Positions 1,055-55,911 of a DNA stretch of 64,000 nucleotides are shown here, piece after piece. The notes beneath the pieces were generated by a model that saw nothing but the letters and a program-made list of their open reading frames with translations, made no database searches and had not been told where the DNA came from. The translations under genes were made by a program, and so were the position numbers. Numbering within the stretch: the stretch's first letter is position 1; each line of letters opens with the position of its first letter. Source of the DNA: Lachnospiraceae bacterium AC2028 (lineage in GTDB: Bacteria; Bacillota; Clostridia; Lachnospirales; Lachnospiraceae); the NCBI GenBank assembly GCA_000702685.1, contig JNJD01000006.1, positions 558,001-622,000 on the forward strand. Reading direction: 5' to 3'.

Positions 1055-1077
1055 GTAAGTCACTACTCCTTAATGGT

Positions 1078-1140
1078 GAGTCACGGGGACAGTCCCTCCT
1101 GACTCATGATATGAGTCAGTGGGGACTGTCCCCGTGACTC
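1078..1140. repeat. REP-like inverted repeat pair (family A) between thyA and folA
   Basis: Two roughly 30-bp units stand head to head around a 3-base spacer (1078-1107 and 1111-1140). Each unit is itself a palindrome with a GGGGACxGTCCC core and GAGTCA/TGACTC feet. The arms are nearly identical, with two mismatches (CCCTCCTG against CCCCACTG). The same unit recurs near 46.58, 50.40 and 51.36 kb, the last two flanking a Y1-type transposase. The folA ribosome binding site follows directly on the minus strand. Confidence 0.85.
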
Positions 1141-1148
1141 ATTTCACC

Positions 1149-7772: not shown

Positions 7773-7845
7773 GCGACAGTAGCTTAGTTGGTAAAGCGCC
7801 ACCTTGCCAAGGTGGAGACCGCGGGTTCGAGCCCCGTCTGTCGCT
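7773..7845 (+). tRNA. tRNA-Gly (anticodon GCC)
   Basis: The cloverleaf is complete: the acceptor arm GCGACAG (7773-7779) pairs with CTGTCGC (7838-7844), with discriminator T. The anticodon stem is CCACC/GGTGG with loop TTGCCAA (anticodon GCC), and the T arm has the TTCGAGC loop. The CCA end is not encoded. It has its own promoter and terminator, so it is a single-gene unit. Confidence 0.97.
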
Positions 7846-46564: not shown

Positions 46565-46608
46565 GTGAGTCGCTGTTTGAGTCAGTGGGGACTGTCCCCG
46601 TGACTCAC
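46565..46608. repeat. REP-like palindrome (family A) with a partial second arm
   Basis: A 31-base palindromic unit (46578-46608) with the GGGGACTGTCCCC core. Before it is a second copy of the foot GTGAGTC (46565-46571), likely the remnant of a paired unit. It lies between the ABC exporter and the P-loop gene. Confidence 0.8.
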
Positions 46609-50395: not shown

Positions 50396-50427
50396 ATGAG
50401 TCACGGGGACAGTCCCCACTGACTCAT
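50396..50427. repeat. REP-like palindrome (family A), upstream flank of the transposase
   Basis: A 32-base palindrome with GGGGACAGTCCCC at the centre and ATGAGTCA/TGACTCAT at the feet. The two arms differ (CACGGGGAC and CAGTGGGGAC). It lies 193 bases before the transposase start, in the 332-base gap to the ABC exporter. Confidence 0.88.
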
Positions 50428-50620
50428 TTATAAAAATGCACAAAATCTGAAAAGCCTATATTTTTCCGGATCATACAGCCACATATACCCCAAAATGACG
50501 AAAGTGTCATGAAAATCTTGTGAGATATTACACTTGATATCTCGTTTAATCATATATAAAAATCTATTCTACCTAACCGAATTAACAATTAATCATAACG
50601 AAAAGAAAAGAGGTGATCGA
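50428..50620 (+). other. AT-rich transposase leader with an inverted repeat
   Basis: No gene lies here. The stretch is clearly more AT-rich than the neighbours. It holds an inverted repeat GAGATAT-8-ATATCTC (50522-50543) overlapping a possible -35 box (TTGATA), and a small TGAC/GTCA hairpin near 50497. Either could be an operator or a transposase recognition site. Confidence 0.4.
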
Positions 50621-51358
50621 TTGCCAAGAAGAGCAAGAGAACCAAGTGTCACCGGATATATGCATATCATTGTAAAAGGAAACGGAGGTCAGATACTGTT
50701 TGAAGAGCCTCAGGATTTCAGATTTTTTCTGACTAAAATGAAATATAGCTGCTATGATACCGGCGTTAAATTGTGTGCCTACTGTCTGATGGACAATCAT
50801 GTTCATCTCCTTACATATTCCGATATTAATAATCTGTCCCTTTTTATGAAAAAACTCTGTGTTTCATATTCCGAATACTTTAATAAAAAACATAAACGAA
50901 CGGGACATCTCTTTCAGGATAGATTTAAAAGTGAACCCATAAACAACGAAGAGTATCTTCTCACCGCATTTCGATACATCCTTTTAAATCCTCAAAAGGC
51001 CGGAATCTGTAAAGCATCGGAGTATAAATGGAGCAGTTATATGCTATACGATTTTCCACCTAATTTCATGGAACTGGATCTGTTATACAATCTGATCGGA
51101 AAAAAGAAAGAATACGAAGAATATATTTTCTCAGATAACAATGACGAATGCATGGAATTCTCATCTGAAAAACACACCGATGACTGGGCCATTACAGAAA
51201 TCAGAAAATGGCTGGGCATAAACAGCGGAACGGAGATTCAAAAATTCGAAAAGAAAAAGCGTAACAGTGCTATACATACACTAAAGGTTCATGGTCTGAG
51301 CATAAGACAGATAGAGCGTCTTACCGGAATCAACAGAAACGTGATCCAAAGAGCATAA
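50621..51358 (+). CDS. REP-associated tyrosine transposase (Y1/HUH, RAYT-like)
   Basis: A 245-residue HUH transposase of the Y1_Tnp group. The start PRRARE is the usual beginning of the group. The metal motif is H60-V61-H62 (DNHVHLLTY), GHLFQDRFKSEPI follows, and the likely catalytic Tyr is in FRYILLNP (119). A C-terminal helix-turn-helix (LKVHGLSIRQIERLTGI) is added. The start is TTG, with AGAGGTGA 4 bases before it. It is flanked on both sides by family A palindromes, like RAYT/REP units. It is AT-richer than its neighbours and probably acquired. Confidence 0.9.
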   Translation: MPRRAREPSVTGYMHIIVKGNGGQILFEEPQDFRFFLTKMKYSCYDTGVKLCAYCLMDNHVHLLTYSDINNLSLFMKKLCVSYSEYFNKKHKRTGHLFQDRFKSEPINNEEYLLTAFRYILLNPQKAGICKASEYKWSSYMLYDFPPNFMELDLLYNLIGKKKEYEEYIFSDNNDECMEFSSEKHTDDWAITEIRKWLGINSGTEIQKFEKKKRNSAIHTLKVHGLSIRQIERLTGINRNVIQRA

Positions 51359-51361
51359 AAA

Positions 51362-51392
51362 ATGAGTCACGGGGACTGTCCCCGTGACTCAT
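51362..51392. repeat. REP-like perfect palindrome (family A), also the groL terminator
   Basis: A 31-base perfect palindrome (15 + 1 + 15) with the GGGGACTGTCCCC core, 3 bases after the transposase stop. On the minus strand it is followed by TTTTTTATG and lies 24 bases past the groL stop, so it has all the parts of an intrinsic terminator for groL. Confidence 0.88.
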
Positions 51393-51415
51393 ATACTGTG
51401 GCAGTGATCTGTGAA

Positions 51416-53346
<1,931 letters not shown>

Positions 53347-55812: not shown

Positions 55813-55824
55813 CGAAGGTGGTGG

Positions 55825-55885
55825 GTGAACAGGGGGACGGTTCCATCGTTCACTAAGTGAACAGAGGAACCGTCCCCCTGTTCAC
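55825..55885. repeat. Second-family palindromic repeat (family B)
   Basis: A 61-base inverted repeat with 20-bp perfect outer arms (GTGAACAGGGGGACGGTTCC at 55825-55844, its complement at 55866-55885) and an inner GTTCACTAAGTGAAC. The core GGGGACGGT recalls family A, but the feet (GTGAAC) differ. It lies between the IMPACT-family gene and the DUF1905 promoter. Confidence 0.85.
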
Positions 55886-55911
55886 CGGAGCACTCCGCCT
55901 GCCGTCTCTGC

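Follow-up and report, generated by a model that had tools for sequence, protein, structure and literature searches.

A HUH/Y1 transposase gene of Lachnospiraceae bacterium AC2028 lies between two palindromes that recur elsewhere in the genome, which raises the question of whether the enzyme recognizes and spreads these repeats and, if so, which part of the protein reads them. The gene was analyzed within a stretch of 64,000 nt, here called the window (G000:C6:558001-622000), of a 2.77 Mb genome (G000) that is 99.6% complete. An initial annotation had described a REP system of the RAYT type and had connected transposase and repeats by co-location and symmetry. That connection now has further evidence behind it, namely an association between residues of the protein and bases of the repeat, and covariation within the repeats. 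The reading that we favor, to which we give a probability of about 0.8 on sequence evidence, is a TIRtron with cognate repeats: a helix-turn-helix (HTH) would read the stem, the HUH domain would cut and rejoin at the center, and the units would spread.

The Transposase and Its Flanking Palindromes

The gene, designated TIRYT-A, begins with a TTG codon preceded by GAGGTG (Table 1). Its product matches Pfam Y1_Tnp (E 3.2e-10), and H60, H62, and Y119 are invariant across 50 aligned proteins; the profile scan required an NHxH pattern, so the two histidines, though not the tyrosine, are invariant partly by construction. The predicted structure (mean pLDDT 92.2) places HTH helices at residues 211–223, 228–235, and 239–244, the last being the recognition helix, and the structure that it matches best in fold is that of TnpAREP with a bound REP hairpin (PDB 4er8). 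No Pfam HTH family matches the window protein; HTH_23 matches 7 and HTH_28 matches 3 of the 50 aligned proteins (E ≤ 0.01). Pfam match, alignment, and predicted structure together bear out the annotated HxH motif at residues 60–62, Tyr119, and the C-terminal HTH.

The two bracketing palindromes are also present as annotated. Both read TGAGTCA-GGGGACNGTCCCC-TGACTCA, more generally TGAGTCA-(C)-GGGGAC-N-GTCCCC-(n)-TGACTCA, in inverted polarity (center A, then T), and the left one has one additional base on its 3′ side. GGGGACAG is found in both flanks, again in inverted polarity. The more distant copies assigned to this family (family A) exist as well, two of them as an inverted pair. With up to two mismatches allowed, the window holds seven matches against 1.83 ± 1.26 in shuffled sequence, and 0 of 100 shuffles reach seven; two of the seven, at 55824-55886, belong to a second family (family B). 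An Rfam scan of the window at gathering scores found no RNA family at the palindromes, its sole match being a tRNA at 7773-7845, and the idea that they represent a known RNA family was dropped. A phage origin was dropped because a PHROG search gave no match at E ≤ 0.001.

Table 1. Positions of the transposase genes and repeat units (window coordinates unless a contig is named)
Feature	Position	Strand	Basis or remark
TIRYT-A, HUH/Y1 transposase, 245 aa	50621..51358	+	ORF, Pfam, alignment, predicted structure
HUH motif of TIRYT-A	50798-50806	+	
Catalytic Tyr119 of TIRYT-A	50975-50977	+	
C-terminal HTH (predicted), residues 226-245, recognition helix from 239	51296..51355	+	Predicted structure, column scans
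Left palindrome, forward polarity, center A, foot TGAGTCA / TGACTCA	50397..50426	+	
Right palindrome, reverse polarity, center T on + strand	51363..51391	-	
Family-A unit, forward, first of inverted pair	1077..1106	+	
Family-A unit, reverse, second of inverted pair	1112..1141	-	
Single family-A unit, reverse polarity	46578..46607	-	
Family-B unit, GTGAAC foot, forward	55824..55854	+	
Family-B unit, reverse, second of inverted pair	55856..55886	-	
TIRYT-B, second Y1 gene	G000:C6:710549-711289		Flanked by family-B units

Assignment to a Known Class

The TIRYT-A system is a TIRYT/TIRtron, a kind already described, and not a canonical RAYT/REP. According to Di Nocera 2013 (PMC3733652), a TIRYT is a HUH/Y1 gene of RAYT-like kind that lies between terminal inverted repeats (TIRs), many with GGGGWSAS; TIR families are moderate in size and dispersed, with dimers, some TIRs are self-complementary, and S. 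maltophilia has two TIRYTs, each with its own TIR family. The present system resembles that description in its HUH motif and catalytic tyrosine, its inverted-repeat flanks instead of GTAG, and its dispersed, partly dimeric families. GGGGACAG of family A fits GGGGWSAS, whereas the family-B center, GGGGACGG, does not fit it strictly. Beyond that description, the repeats are seen here to be built on a single hairpin plan whose arms covary, and to correspond to the recognition helix of the HTH.

TIRYT-A probably belongs to TnpAY1 subclass 2.1, an assignment made by features and not with the authors' profiles. In Quentin 2018 (PMC6006769), subclass 2.1 probably corresponds to TIRYT, is the second largest subclass, is not GTAG-flanked, and has a C-terminal HTH of the Bac_DnaA_C, HTH_23, or HTH_28 kind. 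That study found subclass 2.1 genes to have no REP-like sequences in their vicinity and offered two suggestions: perhaps the C-terminal domain does not recognize the inverted repeats, or perhaps evolution has directed it to a new target. The C-terminal HTH in the predicted structure of TIRYT-A is a likeness to group 2.1.2. Contrary to the first of these suggestions, our data favor a C-terminal HTH that would read the repeats. The features that led the initial annotation to propose a distinct branch, an HTH and the lack of a GTAG foot, are real, but the branch is already in print (PMC3733652 and probably PMC6006769).

The proposed RAYT-type REP system holds insofar as a transposase has its own dispersed palindromes; the canonical GTAG-type foot is absent, and the system is a TIRYT/TIRtron instead. 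We regard it as highly improbable that the system is a canonical RAYT with a REP family (REPtron groups 2/3) whose foot merely drifted. For RAYT/REPtron groups 2 and 3, including E. coli TnpAREP (4er8, the top PDB match), PMC8266576 describes the same HUH/Y1 fold, palindrome flanks, dispersed units, and inverted pairs, all of which a drifted RAYT would explain. TIRYT-A differs from them in lacking the GTAG foot and in an added HTH that apparently reads the stem; the 44 family-A units carry TGAGTCA in place of GT[AG]G, the GGGGAC center ties the repeats to the TIRYT motif, and NCBIfam REP_Tyr_transpos scores TIRYT-A at 56.8 bits, under its cut-off of 80. On foot and score the canonical REP/RAYT assignment was dropped. 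The TnpA proteins of IS200/IS605 (ISDra2, IS608) share the catalytic fold, but TIRYT-A is longer, carries the HTH, and is not a multicopy insertion sequence. A multicopy autonomous IS200/IS605 element was rejected because only two Y1 genes were found in G000, TIRYT-A and TIRYT-B, 35% identical and each in single copy.

Two Repeat Families and Two Enzymes

The exact core GGGGACNGTCCCC occurs at 31 places in the whole genome and its reversed-pattern control at none, and all nine family-A pairs within 80 nt are forward-reverse, which confirms the annotated picture of single and paired dispersed units. A survey of 47 stretches around core matches, together with the window, gave 95 cores (44 family A, 51 other). 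By a simple ORF caller, 42/44 family-A cores and 43/51 of the others (85/95 overall) lie outside called genes, and non-coding sequence makes up 13.3% of the surveyed stretches. The annotated restriction to intergenic gaps is therefore nearly right, the remaining cores being inside genes; the two of family A are L067, within a long ORF, and L092, 16 nt behind a called start. A few cores without feet, for example L080, are probably chance matches. Each unit has a near-invariant center, GGGGAC-N-GTYCC, within a stem specific to the element. Units are 29–30 nt long and conservation extends to about 33 nt; measured from the center it reaches about 16 nt in family A (44 units) and 14 nt in family B (48 units). 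Folding favored the GGGGAC strand in 44 of 56 units and the other strand in 8, and strong strand-specific folding was dropped since the bias is slight (mean 0.5 kcal/mol).

The initial annotation had overlooked a second transposase and a second repeat family in the genome, as well as the general foot-GGGGAC-foot′ unit treated below. TIRYT-B is flanked by GTGAAC..GGGGACGGTTCC..GTTCAC, with one of the two flanking units imperfect, and matches HTH_23 at E 0.0016, below Pfam's cut-off. The exact family-B core has 48 matches in G000 (control 0), and the second inverted pair of the window belongs to the family that flanks TIRYT-B. Each of the two transposases of the genome is thus flanked by its own repeat family, and the feet of the two families differ. 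Family-B pairs within 80 nt comprise four forward-reverse and three forward-forward cases; two mixed A/B pairs share a single orientation. Nine of the 48 family-B core matches fall within about 21 kb around TIRYT-B, and toxin-antitoxin genes (BrnT, HicB-like) adjoin that gene (L001, G000:C6:709424-712756).

The positions of the units bear on whether they are bidirectional terminators or other host sites, between two of which a transposase happened to land. Because 26/95 units have TTTT no more than 10 nt away on one side or both, compared with 10/95 in a control stretch further out, some units may serve as terminators. Divergent gaps are rare: the gene pairs around 84 cores are 55 tandem, 23 convergent, and 6 divergent, and those around 145 comparison gaps of at least 60 nt are 98, 23, and 24. 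The right palindrome is followed on the minus strand by T6, shortly behind groEL (51363-51416), at the place where relatives have a terminator-like hairpin. Host sites would account for these points; they would not account for feet that vary with the recognition helix of the adjacent enzyme over many lineages, for a pair inserted as a unit, or for two families that match two enzymes, and we consider this explanation very unlikely. A terminator role may instead be a by-product, compatible with the TIRtron explanation.

A General Foot-GGGGAC-Foot′ Unit

An alignment of 21 proteins (A1) served as query in a profile scan for related loci. The 80 loci named from it are the best 80 of 543, which we take to belong mainly to Bacillota, then Coriobacteriia, with one Treponema, one Prevotella, and one Desulfaltia bin. 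The family alignment is matched at E ≤ 1e-10 by 125 of 398 genomes sampled from the phylum. The first set of 100 loci consists of these 80, 18 from relatives, and the two of G000. Of the further loci matched in the phylum sample, 80 were fetched in list order, with some partial, broken, or contig-end loci skipped. The hold-out has 109 loci; ten of them are at least 85% identical to some first-set protein, and purged figures were therefore used. No GGGGAC unit lies within 350 nt in 26/100 first-set and 17/109 hold-out loci, in some cases for lack of contig.

Without any prior motif, the 6-mer most strongly enriched upstream of the genes (reach 350 nt) is GGGGAC, in 55/78 loci against 8.1 expected. 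On the opposite strand downstream, the leading 6-mers are GGGACG, in 50 loci, and GGGGAC, in 48/76 against 7.9 expected (all among the best 80 of 543). A GGGGAC unit lies nearby in 155 of 189 TIRYT loci examined, and these 155 have in common an invariant center inside a lineage-specific stem with covarying arms. Covariation was scored on the nearest unit in one fixed register on the center base, at offsets 7–14 and without selection by pairing, and the null was obtained by shuffling arms between loci. Among the best 80 of 543, 63 loci could be scored (17 had no GGGGAC in reach; the duplicate L121 was omitted upstream). Upstream arms pair in 307/448 cells, compared with 151.7 ± 10.1 when shuffled, and downstream arms in 264/392, compared with 132.3 ± 9.6. 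After removal of proteins more than 90% identical the first-set figures are 302/440 versus 148.3 and 253/376 versus 126.3. The hold-out purged of first-set kin (77 loci with unit) gives 333/528 versus 201.5 ± 10.3 and 330/520 versus 204.7 ± 10.0; the unpurged hold-out, which still contains loci close to the first set, gives 412/648 and 386/616. Offsets 3 and 5 are G.T in 69–77% of units, and the center itself is therefore an imperfect palindrome. Family A of the window is the perfect version of this imperfect center, and a perfect palindrome is a special case of the general unit.

Recognition-Helix Residues Track the Bases of the Foot

Variable columns of the protein were scanned for association with similarity of the foot, after rare bases had been weighted and whole-protein identity removed. 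The first set was filtered from 100 loci to 74 with a unit, to 65 with at least five of eight pairs, and to 62 after near-duplicates and HTH gaps were taken out; the same steps reduced the hold-out from 109 to 92, 73, and 60. Only columns 243 (r 0.244) and 239 (0.156) exceed the family-wise limit of 0.130 in the first set. Columns 239 (0.163) and 80 (0.154) exceed the limit of 0.144 in the hold-out, where 239 ranks first of 210 and is followed after 80 by 240 (third), 30, 243 (fifth), 135, and 238 (seventh). For both sets together (122 loci), columns 243, 239, 80, 238, 228, and 240 pass the limit of 0.095. Column 239 stays first or second without the shift, with 60% de-duplication, with stricter pairing, and with window kin removed. 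In an unweighted variant, 105 comes first (0.222), 239 second (0.182), then 229 and 228, with 243 outside the top eight. Column 80, in the HUH domain (window 50858-50860), also tracks the stem, and through it the catalytic domain may help to recognize the foot.

The typical foot is NNNN-CA-(0..3 nt)-GGGGAC (107 of 122 loci), and the residue-base tables cover these 107 loci with feet ending in CA; the foot of TIRYT-B has CG at that end, which places it outside these tables. With descent uncorrected, residue 239 is associated with bases −2 and −1 before CA (z 14.2 and 12.9) and residue 240 with base −3 (z 10.9). G stands at −2 in 56/69 loci with R/K239 and in 3/38 without. T at −3 accompanies G240 (24/34 versus 6/73 without it), A at −3 accompanies N/D240 (25/28 versus 27/79), and T at −1 accompanies Q243 (19/25 versus 12/82). 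Arginine or lysine commonly meets guanine, and asparagine adenine, in major-groove contacts of HTH proteins, and the R/K239-G and N240-A associations agree with this general knowledge.

The window protein has R239, N240, and Q243 and by these associations fits its own foot, A(−3) G(−2) T(−1) CA. All seven RN..Q proteins, the window's own counted, have an AGTCA foot. The TIRYT of a genome of the same genus (G025) has RG..Q; its downstream unit is TGACAG-AGGGACAGTCCCC-CTGACA, and all three G025 stretches read with the center GGGGACTGTCCC have TGACA- or TGTCA-type feet. Of six G025 stretches with GGTTCC centers, two have TGACAG beside the center and four have other feet.

Relatives share both protein and repeat, and the association could reflect this shared descent only, the HTH making no contact with the stem. 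A crude comparison of whole domains is in keeping with such a view: in a partial Mantel test the foot correlates with the N-domain at 0.209 and with the HTH at 0.137, the HTH moving ahead only once rare bases are weighted, and columns 80, 96, and 51 outside the HTH are associated as well. The column scans, in contrast, control for whole-protein identity. A tree that leaves out the HTH supplies independent pairs; for residue-base pairs picked after the association table had been viewed, these support G240-T(−3) by 10:0 (6 without change), N/D240-A(−3) by 10:1 (7 without change), and R/K239-G(−2) by 7:1 (3 without change); two of the five pairs tested, R239 alone-G(−2) at 7:2 and K239-A(−1) at 6:1, are weak. 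Remote templates (less than 50% identical) chosen by the helix predict at least three of four bases in 18.6/59 hold-out loci (ties averaged), compared with 6/59 for templates chosen by the N-domain and 6.1 at random. The mean number of bases correct out of four is 1.89 for the helix, 1.61 for another C-terminal stretch (146–226), and 1.30 at random under a looser cut, and 1.69, 1.20, and 1.27 under a stricter one. Descent without contact is, on this evidence, distinctly unlikely.

Insertion and Absence in Related Genomes

A 72-nt stretch with an inverted family-A pair at C8:112.5 kb is empty, with continuous flanks, in all four relatives read (G030, G004, G001, G018); judged by this comparison, the paired palindrome is an insertion. 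No clean empty site was found in relatives for another A-pair site, because gene content differs there.

The whole TIRYT-A element is absent in 3/3 relatives that keep both flanks together (G004, G018, G030). Their spacer between an ABC-transporter gene and groEL is about 175 bp long and has a terminator-like hairpin, with no palindrome of the family-A kind and no transposase. In G004 homologous sequence begins again at 51396, just past the right palindrome; because the left boundary is blurred, this locus shows the element to be absent but gives no clean scar of an excision. There is no evident target duplication. The hairpin behind groEL in the three relatives is unrelated to the right palindrome with its T6, which groEL may have co-opted as its terminator.

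Equal frequency of the palindrome in relatives that lack the transposase would, by the initial annotation, speak against its reading. Family B does not withstand this comparison; family A does so in the three relatives with complete match lists. A-type cores (GGGGAC[AT]GTCCC) are absent or scarce there (0/52 in G001, 0/34 in G018, and 4/58, at two places, in G004, where the A units read have TGAGTCA feet), but B-type cores are common in G001, G004, G018, and G030, in which no Y1 gene was found in fragmented bins that are 76–91% complete. Among 24 loci read in these four, nine have GTGAAC and GTTCAC arms and five more GTTCAC alone. Core matches number 34 to 65 in each of these genomes and in G039, of another genus and also with no Y1 gene found, where TGAAACG- or TGGAACG-type feet stand at all six loci read. 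The repeats in these five genomes are either orphan families or a sign of assembly gaps. Y1 matches number 26 in G129 (many with equal score) and 17 in G054 (several partial); in contrast to the TIRYT with its single copy, these probably represent ordinary elements of the IS200 type.

The insertion at C8 also bears on a reading in which a repressor-like HTH regulates the transposase gene or its neighbors by binding to the palindromes, with mobility past or marginal. An HTH on palindromic double-stranded sites is typical of repressors, the gene is single-copy, and the families are modest, with some 40–50 units. Repression, however, requires neither paired units nor dispersal, the catalytic tyrosine is kept in 50/50 aligned proteins, and a pair has inserted since the split from four relatives. 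We consider the repressor reading unlikely.

Discussion

The TIRtron reading brings these observations together, and TIRYT-A very probably recognizes and spreads its repeats, judging from the associations and the insertion described above. In the mechanism that we propose, the HTH recognition helix would read the double-stranded stem, with residue 240 facing base −3, 239 facing −2, and 243 facing −1 before CA, and this reading would give each enzyme its own repeat family. The HUH domain would bind the GGGGAC center, and a single strand would be cut and rejoined near the hairpin. Units, often as forward-reverse pairs, would then be copied or moved into intergenic sites, with TIRYT-A as the presumed cause of the insertions in its genome.

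A broader proposal seems fairly likely to us: TIRYTs would be two-part readers with a legible code, in which the HUH domain takes the invariant GGGGAC center and helix residues 240, 239, and 243 specify bases −3, −2, and −1. A switch of a helix residue would found a new, orthogonal family, and many "unrelated" TIRs of Bacillota, Coriobacteriia, and beyond would form one hairpin class with a foot predictable from the protein.

In the open-license literature we found neither a recognition code for TIRYTs nor the family-A repeat of Lachnospiraceae described, although such papers may exist elsewhere; as far as we found, the covarying architecture of the unit, the tracking of bases by residues, and the insertion of a paired palindrome are new relative to what is in print. 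PMC6006769 leaves open how TIRYT repeats are recognized and what part the HTH plays in this, and the residue-to-base rule makes both testable. It would allow orphan palindrome families to be assigned to an enzyme and would make available a naturally occurring series of HUH nucleases with orthogonal hairpins.
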